The position numbers and the translations under genes were made by a program. Below are positions 11,682 through 22,978 of a DNA stretch of 64,000 bases, one piece after another (the stretch's first letter is position 1; each line of letters begins with the position of its first letter). This DNA comes from Thermococcus sp. 21S9 (GTDB lineage Archaea > Methanobacteriota_B > Thermococci > Thermococcales > Thermococcaceae). The notes below the pieces were generated by a model. It saw nothing but the letters and a program-made list of their open reading frames with translations. It made no database searches and had not been told where the DNA came from. The stretch lies in the NCBI RefSeq assembly GCF_012027635.1, contig NZ_SNUS01000001.1:1612001-1676000 (forward strand). The letters run 5' to 3'.

Positions 11682-13389
11682 TTTCTTCGGGTCTTAGAGT
11701 CTTATTGCAACGTCTCATTCTCGTCCCCGGTGTCAATACAGAGGAGCTCTTTCAATTCTCTTCGAGTCTTATTGCAACTAATCCAGCTCCCGCCATAAGT
11801 CCGTCGCGTCTTCGGCTTTCAATTCTCTTCGAGTCTTATTGCAACGAGAACTGGGGAGCACCTGACGCTGCAGCTCTAGCCCTTTCAATTCTCTTCGAGT
11901 CTTATTGCAACGGTTGGACGATGAAAGCGGAGCGCACAAAGAAGAAGAGCTTTCAATTCTCTTCGAGTCTTATTGCAACACGGTGCGCACGGGTAGGCTA
12001 AGGGCGTCAATTCATCACTTTCAATTCTCTTCGAGTCTTATTGCAACCGCCTATGTGAGTTTCCCCCTCTTCAATCATTACATCTTTCAATTCTCTTCGA
12101 GTCTTATTGCAACAACCCTTTAAAGGCTCATGCTCTAATGTCTTATTGACTTTCAATTCTCTTCGAGTCTTATTGCAACATCGACAGCCCTGGAATTGCG
12201 ACTGACGCAATCACTGCTTTCAATTCTCTTCGAGTCTTATTGCAACTATCCCTCCAAAGTTGTCGGTAGTAAAATACCAAATCTTTCAATTCTCTTCGAG
12301 TCTTATTGCAACTTCCCGCAGAGGTGGCAGAGGCCTTGGACCTCGCCCCCTTTCAATTCTCTTCGAGTCTTATTGCAACTTCCCTGAATTTCCGCGCATT
12401 TTCCTAATAGAGGAAAATTCTTTCAATTCTCTTCGAGTCTTATTGCAACAGCGATTGACATAGCTCTAACAGTGCTTAACAACATCTTTCAATTCTCTTC
12501 GAGTCTTATTGCAACACAAGGCCCTTGAGATTTTCGTCCCGGAGAGGCTCTCTTTCAATTCTCTTCGAGTCTTATTGCAACGACATCAAGCCCACCACCG
12601 ACGCTCGCAAGCTCCTTGCTTTCAATTCTCTTCGAGTCTTATTGCAACCTCCCTACCCCAGGCCCGTGTCGAGGGGGTCTCTCAAGCTTTCAATTCTCTT
12701 CGAGTCTTATTGCAACCTGAACTCTCAATTCTTCGAGAGGAACTTTCTCTCCTGCTTTCAATTCTCTTCGAGTCTTATTGCAACAGTAGGAAGGCCTTAG
12801 CGATTGAGAAACTCATTAACGCTTTCAATTCTCTTCGAGTCTTATTGCAACTTGCCAGAGCTTAATATAGCCCGCGCTGACCAGCCCTCTTTCAATTCTC
12901 TTCGAGTCTTATTGCAACCCTCTTGTACGGGGGTGAGGATGAAGAGGGGTACGAGCTTTCAATTCTCTTCGAGTCTTATTGCAACCGCTCGAAGCCTCTC
13001 CCTGAGTATCTCCTCAGTTGACTTTCAGTTCTCTTCGAGTCTTATTGCAACACGGTGATACGGGTCAGCTCGTCGAAGTCAAAAGCCTCTTTCAATTCTC
13101 TTCGAGTCTTATTGCAACAGAAGGATGGAGATACGCTCGGCGTTTTCTATGTGAACTTTCAATTCTCTTCGAGTCTTATTGCAACCATAGTTACGTCCTT
13201 CGTATGTGTAGTATATTTCAATGCCTTTCAATTCTCTTCGAGTCTTATTGCAACTCGTAACCCGCCAGAAAAGTTCATACCAGAAGTAATTCTTTCAATT
13301 CTCTTCGAGTCTTATTGCAACTGAGGTCTGGCTCCGCCTCGGCCCTGGAGATGACGTCGCTTTCAATTCTCTTCGAGTCTTATTGCAAC
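11682..13389 (-). CRISPR. CRISPR array: 25 full 30-bp repeats plus one degenerate end repeat, 25 spacers
   Basis: The full repeats run from 11749-11778 to 13360-13389. The plus-strand repeat begins CTTTCAATTCTC and ends GTCTTATTGCAAC. All look identical except the one at 13022-13051, which has G for A at its seventh base. A degenerate repeat at 11682-11711 keeps only the last 15 bases. The 25 spacers are 36-40 bases long, mostly 36-38. By comparison with Thermococcales repeats, and because the decayed copy is on the left, the array is read leftward, giving crRNA 5' handles ending in ATTGAAAG. No cas gene is in the window, so processing must be done by Cas proteins encoded elsewhere. Confidence 0.99.
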
Positions 13390-13960
13390 AGGGCGCAAAA
13401 CCCGCTCTTTCACCCAACAAAGGAGGAATAACCTCCCAATATTTAAGCCTTTCTGGAAACCCGCGTTTACCCGGGTCGGCGTGCTGACCGCCACGTTGTC
13501 TCTCGCGGGAGTGGGTGCCGTCCTCACGCTTGACCGGAAGGCACTGTTGGGATTTCCAGACTCACGAGAGCGTTTTAATGCCGGTTTTGAGGCAGTTTTG
13601 GTTTTGTCGGGTGAAATTATTGAACCCCATCAGGGTTCCAGTGAAAAGCTCCCCGCTCGTATCTGCTCTATTCGCTTCGAAAAAACTTCGTAACATTTTA
13701 ACTGAAAATCTGGAACACTATGTCGCATTTTGAGATTTGTAAAATCCGATTTCCAACCGCCTCTTCCGCCCGCTCGTTTTGAATTTTCCTCTCTAACGGG
13801 GCCCCTCTGGTCTCGGCCCGTTCTCACCGTGATGTTCCGGAGAAAAGTGCCGGCCGATTTTATGTCAAACCATGCATATTTAGTGAACAACTTAATAACC
13901 CACCGTAATGTTTAAAACCCGCAGGTCTTATAAGCGCCAGAAACAACGGCCAACGGTGGT
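13390..13960 (-). promoter_or_regulatory. CRISPR leader region and metG promoter (575-bp non-coding stretch)
   Basis: No convincing gene is present between the last repeat and metG. On the minus strand GGCTTAAATATTGGG (13448-13434) is a strong BRE/TATA for pre-crRNA, placing the start near 13420. There an inverted repeat GGAGG-AATAA-CCTCC (13422-13436) overlaps it. The rest, to about 13900, is presumed leader used in spacer acquisition, with A+T-rich patches near 13690-13760 and 13850-13920. At the right end TGTTTAAAACCC (13907-13918) and TCTTATAAGCG (13926-13936) are TATA candidates for metG. Confidence 0.65.
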
Positions 13961-16350: not shown

Positions 16351-17334
16351 TTAAAGTACCAGCTCCACCCAGTTCTCCTTCCCCCTCTTGTAGACCCGTA
16401 CGAGGCCCTTCTCTTCGAGGCGCTTGAACATCCTCCACGCGGTAGTTTTAGGAATACCGAGGGCCTTCCTGACGTCTGCCTGCTTGGCCTTTCCGCCCTG
16501 GTCGTAGACGTAGAGGAGCGCGTTGATTTCCTCGTCGGTGAGACCCATCGCTTCAAGCTTTTCCTTTAGCTCGTCCTTTGAGATGGGAAGTCCTCCCGGG
16601 CGTTTCCTGTTCCTCGCCCAGTAGGCAACCGCGGGAATGCCAACGACCGCCAGGAGGCCGAGTATCGGGAGCAGGTTCCTTCCGCCGGAGGACGCGGGGG
16701 TGCTCGGCTCACCTGGGGAGGTGCTCGTTGAGGGAATTGCTACGGGTGAGGATGTGCTCGAGGTCGTGCTCGAGGGCGTTGATGACGTGCTCGACGTGGT
16801 GGTCGTTGTGGGTGTCTGGGTGGGTGATGGAGATGACGTAGTTGATGTGGTCGGGGGCGGGAGGATGTAGGAGACGCTCTGGTTGCCGGGGGGCATTGTT
16901 ATCGAGTTCGAGGTTATCGTGAGGGGAACGTCGCTCAAATCAACGACAATGGCCCCGGGCGGGAGCTTGATTGTAACGGGATACGGGAAGCTGTAGGTAA
17001 GGTTCCAGACCTTTCCCTCCTTTGAGGTCAGGGAGTCGGTGAAGTAGGTAATTGTTATCCGGGTAGTCGAGTTGAGGACGTAAACCGTTAGAACGCTTCT
17101 GTTCTTCTCAAAGAGGAGTGGTTTTCCGTTCTCGTCCAGAACGGAGAGGCCTGTAACGTTCTCGCTCAGGAGGGGCACCTCAACGGCCACGGAGTAATTG
17201 AAGGGCACCACTACCTCGGTCACCTTAACGTATCCACTACTGTAAACCTCGACTGAAACCCTCTCGACCGTAGCCTGAGCCAAAACTATTGGCAGGGTGA
17301 GTAGCAGGAGCATCACTGCCAGGGACTTTTTCAC
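16351..17334 (-). CDS. Membrane-spanning winged-helix regulator, cassette 1
   Basis: A 327-residue protein. A signal peptide (KSLAVMLLLLTLPIVLAQA) leads to an outside domain of about 140 residues ending in SITMPPGNQSVSYIL. A long Ser/Thr/Pro linker follows, then one transmembrane helix (LLPILGLLAVVGIPAVAYWA) and a cytoplasmic winged helix with ALGIPKTTAWRMFKRLEEKG as recognition region. It is the same plan as archaeal membrane-associated transcription regulators (COG2512-like): outside sensor, inside DNA binding. The GTG at 17334 has GGAGGG eight bases upstream; the longer frame overlapping the upstream gene is rejected. It follows its secreted partner by 16 bases. Its paralogue is at 18387-19220. 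Confidence 0.85.
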   Translation of the reverse strand: MKKSLAVMLLLLTLPIVLAQATVERVSVEVYSSGYVKVTEVVVPFNYSVAVEVPLLSENVTGLSVLDENGKPLLFEKNRSVLTVYVLNSTTRITITYFTDSLTSKEGKVWNLTYSFPYPVTIKLPPGAIVVDLSDVPLTITSNSITMPPGNQSVSYILPPPTTSTTSSPSPTQTPTTTTTSSTSSTPSSTTSSTSSPVAIPSTSTSPGEPSTPASSGGRNLLPILGLLAVVGIPAVAYWARNRKRPGGLPISKDELKEKLEAMGLTDEEINALLYVYDQGGKAKQADVRKALGIPKTTAWRMFKRLEEKGLVRVYKRGKENWVELVL

Positions 17335-17350
17335 AGTTCTCCCTCCGGGT

Positions 17351-18253
17351 TTATCTCCTCTCACCGGAGTTGTTGCCCGGCATGCTCTTCTTTGGGGGCG
17401 CGCCCGGTGAGCCCTCCTCAGAGCTACCCGGGAACGATGGGTGGCCCGGAGTTGTGTGGACAATCTCCCCAATCTTCCCCGACCGCCCCATATCGGCGAG
17501 AACCCGGGTTATTTCCTTGAGCAACTGGAGAACCTTCTCCGAGTCCCCGCTGTTGATGGCGTTTTCGAGCTCGGCCCGTAGCGTTAGGAGCTCAGTCGAG
17601 TTAACGCCCATCGCCATAAGCCTGTCAATCCTCCGAAGCTGGGCCCTGCCCATCAGTTCGGCCCGTTCCCTGACTGAGTTTTGAACCGCCAGGTTTATGG
17701 CCTCCTCGAGTCTTTCCCTCGAAGTCTGAAGGAACGCTACCTTATGGGGGAGGTCCTGTGTGTCGTTATTCTCCAGAGCGATTTTCACGGCGTTGTACGC
17801 GAGGAGCGTTTGGTTGTACTCAGCCTCGACCCTTGCCCTGTCCTCCTCGCTCAGCTCGTTAGATTCGAGCAGTTTTCTCGCGTATTCAAGGACGTTTGAA
17901 GTGATGCCCAGCTCCGTCTCGGCGACAGAGACCCAGTCCTGCGTCATGTTCTCCTCCCCGGTAGTTTTACAGTATTCGAGCGCGGAGCGGTACAGGCCCA
18001 TCGCCTTAAGAGCTTCCTCGGCACTCTCGTTGTAGTTCCCTGCCCTGTACAGCTCCCAGGCCTTCTCTCTAAGGGCGTCTGCCTGCTCTGAGGTGCAGTT
18101 GAGGGAGTGGGTGTAGTTGGCGAGCCTGTCCAGTGCAAGGAGCAGTCCGTTTGCTCTCGTTGACGTAGAGACGGTCTCGGAACTAACCCCACCGACTGCC
18201 GGGACAAGTGAGACGAGGAGTATCCCGATAATCATGAACGCGATTTCCCTCAC
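17351..18253 (-). CDS. Secreted helical protein, cassette 1
   Basis: A 300-residue exported protein of no recognised family. After the signal peptide (IAFMIIGILLVSLVPAVGG) the sequence is nearly all helical, with heptad-like stretches, TPR-like AWELYRAGNYNESAEEALKAM, several Asn-X-Ser/Thr sites, and a Gly/Pro/Ser-rich end without a membrane anchor. Its paralogue at 19245-20387 shares the motif YRxGNYNxSxxxALxAMxxYR. The GTG at 18253 has GGTGAT four bases upstream. A likely partner or ligand carrier for the membrane regulator encoded next; this is inferred from the duplicated gene pair. Confidence 0.78.
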   Translation of the reverse strand: MREIAFMIIGILLVSLVPAVGGVSSETVSTSTRANGLLLALDRLANYTHSLNCTSEQADALREKAWELYRAGNYNESAEEALKAMGLYRSALEYCKTTGEENMTQDWVSVAETELGITSNVLEYARKLLESNELSEEDRARVEAEYNQTLLAYNAVKIALENNDTQDLPHKVAFLQTSRERLEEAINLAVQNSVRERAELMGRAQLRRIDRLMAMGVNSTELLTLRAELENAINSGDSEKVLQLLKEITRVLADMGRSGKIGEIVHTTPGHPSFPGSSEEGSPGAPPKKSMPGNNSGERR

Positions 18254-18281
18254 GGTTATCACCGCTTTAAGTTACGGCTCA

Positions 18282-18306
18282 TCCCTAATTAGGGAAGCGG
18301 TGGAAC
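18282..18306 (-). promoter_or_regulatory. Promoter element of cassette 1: GTTCCACCGC next to CCCTAA core
   Basis: On the minus strand GTTCCACCGC is followed by two bases and CCCTAATTAGGG. The CCCTAA starts 41 bases before the GTG start, the distance expected for BRE/TATA. The same block occurs before cassette 2 (20424-20441). Here the core also forms a perfect 14-bp palindrome, TCCCTAATTAGGGA (18282-18295). It may be the site of a regulator common to both cassettes. Confidence 0.6.
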
Positions 18307-18386
18307 AAAGGACTTAAAACGTTTCCGCAAGTTCCTTTCGATTTCAGGCGAATAGAATTAGGGGCGAGGGGGATATAACGTTTTCT

Positions 18387-19220
18387 CTAACGCTTCAACT
18401 CCACCCAGTTCTCTTTCCTCCCCCGGATGATTTTAACGAGACCCTTCTCCTCAAGGCGCTTGAACATCCTCCACGCGGTTGTCTTAGGAATCCCAAGCGC
18501 GTCCCTTATCTCAGCCTGACTGGCCCGTCCGCCATGCTCCAGCAGGTACTTCAGCGCAAGCCTTTCCTCTTCCCTCAGCTCGTCGCTTTCAAGGGCCCCT
18601 TCAATGGGGTCAGCTTTGGTCTCACCGCCATCGTTTCCGGCCCGTTTTCGCCACCATATGAAAAACACTCCTCCGATGAGAATAGCCCCGCCAAAGGCCA
18701 GGAGGACTTCAAGGGCACCGCTCTTCTGGTTCTTGCCAGTTGGGGGGTTTTCAATGATGTATGAGACGCTCTGGTTGCCCGGAGGCATCGTTATGGAGGT
18801 CCCGTTAATCCGGAGGGGAATATCGCTTAAATCAACGATAACGGCACCATCGGGCAGGAGGACCTCAAAGGGAACCTCGGAGGAGAAGTTAACCGTCCAG
18901 ACTATTCCCCTCTTGGATGTGAGGTCGGGGGTGTAGTAGGAAACCCTAACGAGCTCGGCGCTTCCGGGGTAAATCAGGAGGGATCCGTTGGTTTCCTGGA
19001 AATCGATGGGGTTTCCCCGGGAGTCCTCAACGATGATGTCCTGGGCGTGTTCGGTAACCGGCACGATTAGCGGTTCGGTGTAGTTATCGGGCACTATCGA
19101 GATTTCCACCTGGACGTAGCCGTCCTCGTAAACGAAGAGCTTTACGGTCTCCTGGGCGAGGACCGGGGAAGCCAGCAGAAGCATTGCGAAGATGAGCGCC
19201 GTGCATCGAATCCTTCTCAT
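18387..19220 (-). CDS. Membrane-spanning winged-helix regulator, cassette 2
   Basis: A 277-residue paralogue of 16351-17334. Order: signal peptide (TALIFAMLLLASPVLAQ), an outside domain of about 140 residues ending SITMPPGNQSVSYII, a transmembrane helix (LEVLLAFGGAILIGGVFFIW), and a cytoplasmic winged helix whose recognition segment, ALGIPKTTAWRMFKRLEEKG, is identical to cassette 1. It lacks the long Ser/Thr/Pro linker. The ATG at 19220 follows GGAGGTGGAGG. Identical recognition helices suggest that both regulators read the same DNA site while their outside domains may sense different signals. Confidence 0.86.
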   Translation of the reverse strand: MRRIRCTALIFAMLLLASPVLAQETVKLFVYEDGYVQVEISIVPDNYTEPLIVPVTEHAQDIIVEDSRGNPIDFQETNGSLLIYPGSAELVRVSYYTPDLTSKRGIVWTVNFSSEVPFEVLLPDGAVIVDLSDIPLRINGTSITMPPGNQSVSYIIENPPTGKNQKSGALEVLLAFGGAILIGGVFFIWWRKRAGNDGGETKADPIEGALESDELREEERLALKYLLEHGGRASQAEIRDALGIPKTTAWRMFKRLEEKGLVKIIRGRKENWVELKR

Positions 19221-19244
19221 TCCTCCACCTCCAAAATGAAAGGG

Positions 19245-20387
19245 TCAGGAGTGCGCGTTGATGAATGCCTCCACCTCCTTCAGGAGGGTGACGGCGGTGT
19301 CAAAGTGTTCTTTCGCCTTCTCAGGCTGTCCTGTACGGAGCAGGCGGATTCCGAGCTTGTATTCGTTCATTGCACTCCTCAACTGAACTTCCGCCTTTGA
19401 GACGTCAACGCCCTCGCGCTTTAATTTTTTGAGCTCCCTGCCGTCGTGGATTATCCTCTCGTGGAGTTCCTTGAGCTTCTCGAAGTTCCCTTCCCACTTG
19501 AAGTGGCCCCTCGCCATGACCTTTCCCCTGCCGAGCTCCATCTGGAACTCCTTGACCACGTCTCTCTTCTCGATTATGAGGTTAAGGGCCTCGTCCCACT
19601 TGCCCTCGTCCGCGAGGGTCTTGACGCTCGTGTAGAGCTCAAGGAACGCGGTGTAAGTCTCGTTCAGCTCGGGGTTCGGGTTCTCGCTCAGGGTCCTGTT
19701 GGCGAGCTGGATTGCCCTCTCGCCCTTTGCAAGGAAGCGCTCAACCACTTGCTCCGCATTCTGGTGGAGCATCTGAAGCCTCAGTTCCTTCAACGCGGAG
19801 TCGAGTTCGGCCTTCTTCTGGAGGGCAACCTCGTAGTCCTCCCTTGCCTTTGTCAGGTTTCCGGAGCGTACGTCCTCCATCACGAGCTTGAACGCCTCAA
19901 GGGTCTCGTTGTAGAGCTCCCGCGCCTCGGTGACGTTTAGTCCCCTCTCGCCGGCAACGTTGATGAGCCTCTCAGCGTAGCGCAGGTAAGCCCTGGTTCT
20001 CTCAACCTGTGCCCTGAACTGGGCTTCCACGTTGGCACCGGCTCCCTTCATCGGGCTAATCTCCGACAGCACGAGCCGGTAGTAGTGCATCGCCATCAGC
20101 GCGTCCACCATGGAGGCGTTGTAGTTTCCATCCTGGAACTCGCTCAGGGCTTTGTTGTAGTGTTCCTCAGCTAAGGTTAGATACGTTGAGTTCGTCATGT
20201 TCTCGGGAACTTTTGCCTCGGTAACCTCAGCGAGCCTCTTGAGGTTGTCTATGAGTTTCTGGGCGACGACCTTCTCCTGCGGAACCTCGTTTGTCCCGGT
20301 GGTGTTTTCAGACCCGCTTGCAAGGGCAAAGGGCACCACGCTCCCCACGAGCAGGGCCGTCAGTATTACCACGAGCAACTTCCTCAC
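19245..20387 (-). CDS. Secreted helical protein, cassette 2
   Basis: A 380-residue exported helical protein, paralogous to 17351-18253. The signal peptide is KLLVVILTALLVGSVVPFALA. The mature part is Glu/Lys/Leu-rich with TPR-like units (HYNKALSEFQDGNYNASMVDALMAMHYYR near the start, GIRLLRTGQPEKAKEHFDTA near the end). There is no C-terminal anchor. The GTG at 20387 follows GGTGAT by four bases, exactly the start architecture of the cassette 1 gene; the upstream ATG at 20393 lies inside that ribosome binding site. The regulator follows 24 bases downstream. Function unknown. Confidence 0.78.
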   Translation of the reverse strand: MRKLLVVILTALLVGSVVPFALASGSENTTGTNEVPQEKVVAQKLIDNLKRLAEVTEAKVPENMTNSTYLTLAEEHYNKALSEFQDGNYNASMVDALMAMHYYRLVLSEISPMKGAGANVEAQFRAQVERTRAYLRYAERLINVAGERGLNVTEARELYNETLEAFKLVMEDVRSGNLTKAREDYEVALQKKAELDSALKELRLQMLHQNAEQVVERFLAKGERAIQLANRTLSENPNPELNETYTAFLELYTSVKTLADEGKWDEALNLIIEKRDVVKEFQMELGRGKVMARGHFKWEGNFEKLKELHERIIHDGRELKKLKREGVDVSKAEVQLRSAMNEYKLGIRLLRTGQPEKAKEHFDTAVTLLKEVEAFINAHS

Positions 20388-20423
20388 GGCCATCACCGTC
20401 CCCCTCTTGGGGGCCCGAATATT

Positions 20424-20441
20424 TTAGGGTCGCGGTGGAAC
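20424..20441 (-). promoter_or_regulatory. Promoter element of cassette 2: GTTCCACCGC next to CCCTAA core
   Basis: On the minus strand GTTCCACCGC, two bases, then CCCTAAAATATTC. The CCCTAA begins 42 bases before the GTG start, matching 41 in cassette 1. The 10 + 6 conserved bases are identical to those at 18289-18306, while the surroundings differ, which argues for a kept regulatory element. A plausible TATA overlaps the A+T part. Confidence 0.6.
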
Positions 20442-20448
20442 GCGCGTT

Positions 20449-20721
20449 TCAAATCGTTCCTTTTTCCTCAAGCTCCTTAGCTAGGAGCGCAACGGTCAAG
20501 ATACCCTCGAAGATGCTCCCAAAGTTTGGAACCTCCCCGAACTGGGCAAAGAGGGTTCCGTAGCGAGGGTGCCACGCATCGACCTGCTTCCTGTTTTTGG
20601 CCGTTATGATGTAGACGACCCACTCCCTCTCCTCGAGCCACTCAACGAGTTTCCAAGCGTCGGCCATGTCTTTGACCTCAAGGCCGAACTTCTCGCGAAC
20701 TTTCTCGGCGAGCTCCTCCAT
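20449..20721 (-). CDS. Small unknown protein, 90 residues
   Basis: Acidic, soluble, no recognised family: N-terminal helix rich in Glu/Lys (MEELAEKVREKFGLEV), then WLEEREWVVYIITAKNRK and a Gly/Phe/Pro-containing segment (YGTLFAQFGEVPNFGSIFEG). Starts four bases after the TauE-like permease upstream, so it is probably in the same transcript. No function can be assigned. Confidence 0.65.
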   Translation of the reverse strand: MEELAEKVREKFGLEVKDMADAWKLVEWLEEREWVVYIITAKNRKQVDAWHPRYGTLFAQFGEVPNFGSIFEGILTVALLAKELEEKGTI

Positions 20722-22274: not shown

Positions 22275-22739
22275 TCAATCACCTCCAAGGAGCGTTTTTA
22301 TTGCCCTGCTTATGCTCCAAACCTCAATAACACCTGCGCGAGAAACCTTCTCAAAGTGCCTGTCGTTGGTAACGAGGATTGCCCCGCTTTTCAGGCACGT
22401 CGCCGCGTGGACGGCATCCGCAAGCTGTGTCTCTGGGAAATACGGGAGAACGCGAAGCACTTCCTCCCTGCTTGGGTTTACAATCGTAACTCGCCTTCTA
22501 ATGAACTCATAGAAGTCCAGCGCGTTGAGCTTTTCGGCGTATTTTCGATATTCTGCCATCAAGACGTCGTTTGCCACCAGAACGTAGCGTTTGCTGATTA
22601 AAAAATGGAGTAAAAGCTCGGTCGTGTCGGTCCAGCCCCGTTTAACCGCCGCTATGAAGACGTTTGTGTCGAGCAGAAATTTAGAGTCCGTAGAGTTCCT
22701 TCGCAACCCTGTTCCCCTCTTCCTCGGTTTCAGCTTCAA
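22275..22739 (-). CDS. vapC: PIN-domain ribonuclease, VapC-type toxin
   Basis: A PIN-domain protein of up to 154 residues. Acidic residues are in place: LLDTNVF, AEYRKY, LADAVHAA and VTNDRHF. It is paired with the AbrB-type antitoxin gene upstream, whose end it overlaps. The start is uncertain: the ATG at 22739 gives a basic 18-residue lead (KLKPRKRG), while a TTG at 22706 preceded by GAGGGGAAC would start close to the PIN core. PIN toxins of this class cut RNA; the target is unknown. Confidence 0.82.
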   Translation of the reverse strand: MKLKPRKRGTGLRRNSTDSKFLLDTNVFIAAVKRGWTDTTELLLHFLISKRYVLVANDVLMAEYRKYAEKLNALDFYEFIRRRVTIVNPSREEVLRVLPYFPETQLADAVHAATCLKSGAILVTNDRHFEKVSRAGVIEVWSISRAIKTLLGGD

Positions 22740-22947
22740 GTTCCTCTAAATCCATTCCCCTTGAGTTCTTGACGAGCTTTTCGAGCATTTTCTTGACGTT
22801 GAAGCGCCTCAGGACTATCGTATCGCCGTCTATCTCCGTAACGAGGAACTCCTCGCCGGGCTTGATGTTGAGCTTTCTCCTGACGTCCTTCGGGATTACA
22901 ACCCTGCCCCGGGAGTCAACCTTCGTTATTCCCACTTTTCCCACCAT
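22681..22947 (-). CDS. vapB: AbrB/SpoVT-type antitoxin
   Basis: An 88-residue swapped-hairpin DNA-binding protein (VGITKVDSRGRVVIPKDVRR, the AbrB signature), with an acidic C-terminal tail that would bind the PIN toxin. A TATA element CCCTTAAATATTCCC lies at 22977-22963. The spacing of about 23 bases to the ATG at 22947 suggests a leaderless transcript from there; the ATG at 22959 would give four more residues. The C-terminus overlaps the toxin gene. Confidence 0.85.
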   Translation of the reverse strand: MVGKVGITKVDSRGRVVIPKDVRRKLNIKPGEEFLVTEIDGDTIVLRRFNVKKMLEKLVKNSRGMDLEELEAETEEEGNRVAKELYGL

Positions 22948-22978
22948 TCCCACTACCATGTTGGGAATATTTAAGGGT

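Follow-up and report, generated by a model that had tools for sequence, protein, structure and literature searches.

CpxP, a helical protein that is exported and whose gene is linked to those of its regulator, is proposed to feed back on the envelope sensor CpxA, a histidine kinase. ToxR, TcpP and CadC, which carry an OmpR-type winged helix, adopt an N-in/C-out topology; membrane-anchored partner proteins accompany ToxR and TcpP. The TrmB sugar regulators are soluble and consist of an N-terminal HTH and a C-terminal effector domain. Transmembrane transcription regulators (TTRs), which combine a DNA-binding domain with a transmembrane (TM) region and no kinase, are a known class that includes archaeal members (PMC10269533). 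ArnR and ArnR1 of Sulfolobus acidocaldarius are membrane-bound one-component regulators with near-identical HTHs, inverted-repeat promoter boxes and surface-structure targets (PMC6396743). Archaeal envelope sensing is little known, and the system described here, which pairs a predicted secreted protein (S) with a membrane-spanning regulator (R), unites a gene pair, an operator and a candidate regulon. We propose that R is probably a transmembrane one-component regulator that needs no kinase and governs its own operon together with a small envelope regulon, S being its partner on the outside of the cell.

The two cassettes of Thermococcus sp. 21S9

The window, the whole 64,000-nucleotide stretch of Thermococcus sp. 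21S9 analysed here, carries on its minus strand four genes that form two two-gene operons, S1-R1 and S2-R2 (Table 1), with intergenic gaps between S and R of 24 nt in cassette 1 and 16 nt in cassette 2. The four genes and two tandem cassettes recognized by a sequence-only reading are real and lie where that reading had placed them, and they are the only two cassette copies of the genome. Its use of the similar start sites (GGTGAT, a short spacer and GTG) as a sign of duplication was dropped, because the GGTGAT in front of GTG is the usual archaeal Shine-Dalgarno sequence and not by itself evidence.

Table 1. Genes and promoter elements of the two S-R cassettes (positions in the window).
Feature	Position	Strand	Description	Basis
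S1	19245..20387	(-)	380 aa, GTG start; predicted secreted, all-helical, TPR-like hairpin near C-terminus	ORF, hydropathy, AF2, TPR_2
R1	18387..19220	(-)	277 aa; signal peptide, beta ectodomain, TM helix ~167-195, C-terminal winged helix (predicted)	AF2, hydropathy, Pfam
S2	17351..18253	(-)	300 aa; predicted secreted, helical; hydrophilic C-terminal tail replaces TPR-like hairpin	S1 homology, hydropathy
R2	16351..17334	(-)	327 aa; signal peptide, beta ectodomain, Ser/Thr-rich linker, TM ~221-239, C-terminal winged helix (predicted)	R1 identity, hydropathy
S1 operator, palindromic half	20437..20450	(-)	GAAACGCGCGTTCC	Sole GRAACGNNCGTTYC match in the 1.92 Mb own genome; conserved in relatives
S1 operator, direct-repeat half	20445..20460	(-)	GGAACGATTTGAAACG	Top own-genome match of operator model, E=1.6e-6
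S1 operator end and TATA-like element	20421..20441	(-)	GTTCCACCGCGACCCTAAAATA	Promoter comparison
S2 degenerate operator and TATA-like element	18289..18325	(-)	GAAACG ... GTTCCACCGCTTCCCTAA	Shared GTTCCACCGCNNCCCTAA

Hydropathy analysis revealed that R1 and R2 each have an N-terminal hydrophobic segment and one internal TM segment, followed by basic residues. The AlphaFold (AF2) model of R1, with a pLDDT of 88, consists of a beta ectodomain, a helix spanning residues 167-195 and a winged helix. Pfam search assigned the winged helix to TrmB (32.7 and 33.8 bits for R1 and R2, respectively, against a cut-off of 25.6), with MarR_2 and HTH_24 also above their cut-offs, and matched DUF7343 (PF24034) in both proteins (34.2 and 32.1 bits against a gathering cut-off of 27.6) as well as in all 24 of the 24 aligned R members. 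R1 and R2 each combine in one chain a DNA-binding domain and at least one predicted TM region, which is the definition of a TTR. The same search gave no match in R to the N-terminal Trans_reg_C domain of the ToxR/CadC type, the HTH of R being C-terminal. The layout of the TrmB sugar regulators is not seen in R either, as the HTH lies at the C-terminus behind the TM helix and no effector domain is matched. The best PDB structural matches of the R1 model were ribophorin I (OST1) and the N-domain of M1 aminopeptidases (E 2e-6 to 1e-3); these matches are partial, with a TM-score of ~0.3-0.4 by query, and R1 is devoid of the enzyme domain, which makes this a resemblance of fold only, from which we draw no function.

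R1 and R2 show an identity of 39% by BLASTP and 46% in a global alignment, and have an exact 22-residue HTH segment in common, ALGIPKTTAWRMFKRLEEKGLV, slightly longer than the 20 identical recognition residues noticed before. Their ectodomains, earlier taken to be different, are homologous over the whole length, as shown by the alignment and the shared block SITMPPGNQSVSYI, whereas the long Ser/Thr-rich linker reported for one regulator is indeed present in R2 alone.

The secreted partners are less alike: S1 and S2 resemble each other solely over the first ~107 residues (34% identity). Hydropathy gives only an N-terminal hydrophobic segment in either protein, in agreement with the earlier view that they have no anchor. 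The AF2 model of S1 is all-helical (pLDDT 84). As for the TPR-like units ascribed to both, S1 indeed possesses one TPR_2 repeat above the Pfam cut-off (residues 343-368), whereas S2 has none, and TPR_2 is matched by only one of the 23 aligned S members at E<=0.01. YfdX (PF10938) was matched by neither S1 nor S2 in the Pfam search; three of the 23 S relatives match it at E<=0.01, and one diverged S lies just above the cut-off. A PDB fold search for S gave no match below 0.001.

The tree of 51 paired R proteins places the 14 long-linker R on one side of a single branch (SH-aLRT 99) and yet spreads them over several Thermococcaceae genera, so that the cassette duplication, suspected from the sequence alone, appears not only real but old. 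As the label of the R linker switches only once on the tree, the joint occurrence of a long R linker and an S without the C-terminal hairpin represents one event rather than repeated evidence, and the match of S tail type with R linker type was rejected as a sign of co-evolution. Likewise, the mirror-tree correlation of S and R distances (r 0.885) was not counted as evidence of interaction, because co-inheritance alone predicts such a correlation, and a two-cluster split of the S and R distance trees merely set apart an outgroup.

Several other elements lie in the same window. Two adjacent TauE/SafE exporter paralogues (PF01925, 20726-22274) sit beside the cassettes, and TauE-like genes adjoin S-R in many relatives as well. 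They are followed by a pair of PIN-domain and MazE/AbrB-type genes that looks like a toxin-antitoxin module (22275-22959). A CRISPR array of ~26 repeats (CTTTCAATTCTCTTCGAGTCTTATTGCAAC, ~67-nt spacing) adjoins metG at 11692-13390, and its low-end repeat is the variant TCTTAGAG. PADLOC returned only generic wHTH matches to Csa3/CARF, and we claim no defence role for the cassettes.

Pairing of S and R across relatives

Survey of 94 Thermococcaceae genomes yielded at least 150 R matches, the matches listed comprising 137 full-length and 13 HTH-less proteins. R regularly occurring apart from S was not seen: among the matches listed, 118 of the 137 full-length proteins have S immediately in front of them, in line with the pairing expected from the sequence-only reading. 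The 19 unpaired full-length R among these matches are confined to one genus (g3, 17 proteins) and to the genomes G045 and G056. Among the listed proteins of that genus, eight look linked to metG, and all five of the loci read have a diverged helical secreted S upstream, with a profile match to S of 97.1%. Another nine look devoid of S, and the six loci read possess a different recognition segment. In these six (L058, L060, L061, L064, L066 and L067) the segment is PRTT[TA]WR, and a small gene of the MPxGxGRGRGRRRK type lies directly upstream of each.

The pairing extends further. A scan of GTDB contigs found 20 loci; the 19 that contain a full regulator were read, and S is directly upstream in all whose contig extends there. 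In addition, the S-R pair occurs in eight genomes from two further families of the class, and in one of these families the homology of S was recovered by profile at 97.4%. That an ordinary secreted S and an unrelated membrane protein R are mere chance neighbours in the present genome is scarcely conceivable, as the pairing across 94 genomes and further families refutes it.

S also precedes R-like proteins without the HTH, which are directly downstream of S in 12 of 13 cases among the matches listed; at one such locus (L073:3067-4896), S is followed by a 194-aa protein consisting of an ectodomain and a TM segment. These HTH-less proteins are possibly decoys or anchors. Their position behind S fits a partnership between S and the ectodomain that is independent of DNA binding, and is the best hint that S may act on the R ectodomain, a proposal to which we give about an even chance. 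There is a competing explanation, less probable but of real weight, in which S is just one of the target genes and accompanies its regulator: R would sense the envelope or a small ligand through its own ectodomain, and S would be a surface structural or chaperone-like protein that is produced in response and makes no contact with R. It would account for the solitary S genes, which occur mostly beside an aminoacyl-tRNA synthetase or peptidase gene and bear the same operator, so that S can be a plain member of the regulon; the envelope-like character of other operator targets and the weak YfdX matches of some S and diverged S also agree with it. However, co-regulation alone does not require that S adjoins the ectodomain even where the HTH is lost, and the pairing holds in three families.

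Operator of the S promoters and candidate regulon

Comparison of the two S promoters revealed an exact common element, GTTCCACCGCNNCCCTAA, which has no other match in the window at <=3 mismatches; since 9 of 100 shuffles also give at least two such matches, it is the position that matters. In relatives, the site takes the form GRAACG-N4-GRAACG, then an inverted CGTTYC and then TTTCACCGGGTTCCTAAAATA, and the operator, with its GRAACG half-site, sits directly 5' of the TATA-like box of the S promoters. Across the 94 genomes, 82 of 137 matches of the direct-repeat pattern GRAACGNNNYGRAACG sit 56-84 nt upstream of S. At <=1 mismatch, the fixed patterns, which were derived from part of the 42 S promoters, are found in 36 of the 42 distinct S upstream regions, compared to a shuffle mean of 0.08 and to none of 279 other upstream regions. 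The two further families, which were not used to derive the patterns, provide an independent check: in every case where the contig reaches far enough, S has GRAACGNNCGTTYC or a one-base variant in front of it. In rows pre-selected for it, the aligned operator holds 1.41 bits per column and the flank upstream of it 0.28; the aligned core-promoter region has 1.28 bits per column. The own genome and those of relatives were searched with the patterns and with a sequence-only operator model built without the Thermococcus sp. 21S9 genome; the scan of the own genome with this S1-type model did not find the S2 operator, whose degeneracy counts against the proposed reading.

The operator at the S promoters supports the earlier notion of a signal read through the membrane straight to DNA; that R is the protein that reads it is our inference, which we hold with good confidence from the location and conservation of the site and from changed recognition segments. 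R types with the recognition segments PKTTVWRMV or PRTTTWRIL have no operator upstream. The R proteins of one of the further families (f4) count against R as the reader, as the palindrome is kept there despite a changed segment, PKTSSWRMM. It would seem unlikely that the operator belongs instead to another, unlinked transcription factor, with S-R as one of its targets and R controlling something else. The site does precede many genes, and in the genome G009 a strong site lies before a LamG-like gene though the main R is absent, which counts against R as well. Nevertheless, the S-R promoter is the main address of the site in genome after genome, and the R types with changed segments and no site upstream speak against another factor. 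In genomes at least 90% complete, moreover, 64 of the 69 that possess the main R have a strong site (E<1e-3), against 2 of the 13 that lack this R; the comparison is partly circular, since S promoters served to train the model, and its R-less set includes distant genomes.

Beyond S-R, the operator model matched sites before solitary S genes and before genes for membrane-anchored LamG-like proteins, a DrrA-type ABC-2 exporter, a PMT_2 glycosyltransferase, GH39, DUF257 and a ~110-aa family. These operator-bearing genes are mostly envelope-related and form a candidate regulon, as judged from their predicted products. Besides S1 (E=1.6e-6), the own-genome matches are a partial site before a secreted protein with a CWB2 domain (E=0.10) and a weak intragenic site. 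The CWB2-domain gene (L138:722-2042) has GGAACGATTTGGAACG ~140 nt upstream, in the same place as in G022 and G025. The ~110-aa family was ruled out as a universal target, as only 12 of 30 loci have the site; the own-genome homologue has no operator site, another point against the proposed reading. Matches of GRAACG within coding sequence (e.g. L141, L142, L148 and L155) were excluded as targets. Seven frames of the ~110-aa family (L171, L172, L174, L175, L176, L180 and L183) terminate in VGPGGFEPPTTRL, apparently because the frame runs on into an adjacent tRNA gene.

Proposed mechanism and comparison with known systems

Altogether, we propose that R exposes an N-terminal beta domain to the outside, crosses the membrane by one TM helix and carries a MarR/TrmB-like winged helix at its cytosolic C-terminus. 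A membrane-held R dimer would bind the GRAACG half-sites, which adjoin a poor TATA-like box on its upstream side. The BRE region of this box is not rich in purines, a hint that the promoter depends on assistance, and this favours activation; we therefore consider it somewhat more probable that R activates than that it represses, its targets being its own S-R operon and a small, largely cell-envelope gene set. The exported S would act outside and tune the R ectodomain: it could be a feedback modulator in the manner of CpxP on CpxA, or it could itself encounter the actual ligand or damage. The two cassettes would be old paralogues whose sensors stand at different heights, that of R2 being raised on a Ser/Thr stalk; with near-identical recognition helices, they may feed two inputs into a single regulon. 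The topology, N-out with a single TM segment and a C-terminal cytosolic DNA-binding domain, would also suit regulated proteolysis. In that scheme, S gates an outside event that causes cleavage within the TM helix or close to it, and the winged helix, once released, moves to DNA; we consider this improbable, as the loci read show no recurring protease gene directly next to the cassettes. Tentatively, the design of a membrane-held R with its extracellular partner may hold class-wide as kinase-free envelope sensing, with S as a dedicated co-sensor of an N-out/C-in R, one operator, a surface-glycan and export regulon and an HTH-less damper. The recurring pair and the same DNA switch suggest a simple sensor that relays news from the cell surface directly to genes, and DNA binding, the direction of control and the role of S are directly testable in the genetically tractable Thermococcus.

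Among described systems, S-R resembles the TTRs in that one protein unites a DNA-binding domain and a TM region without a kinase; in the portion consulted, the TTR survey is a census that gives no secreted partner, operator or regulon for the Thermococcales family (PMC10269533). ArnR and ArnR1 are similar in being archaeal, membrane-bound and present as two paralogues with almost identical HTHs. However, ArnR consists of an N-terminal HTH, a putative HAMP and two C-terminal TM segments (PMC6396743), an architecture that R does not share: R is N-out, with a large ectodomain, a C-terminal HTH and a secreted partner gene. ToxR/ToxS, TcpP/TcpH and CadC are alike in having a transmembrane DNA-binding activator (PMC7496328, PMC11323476, PMC5430869); compared to these, R is inverted and MarR/TrmB-like, and its partner is soluble and exported. 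The likeness to CpxP/CpxA is one of description, and S-R has no kinase. Our literature search found no earlier account of the S-R system and no paper on DUF7343. Overall, the general class is known, with the TTRs and with ArnR as the archaeal case, whereas an R family with inverted topology and a near-obligate secreted partner is new, as are the class-wide operator and the candidate envelope regulon predicted from it.
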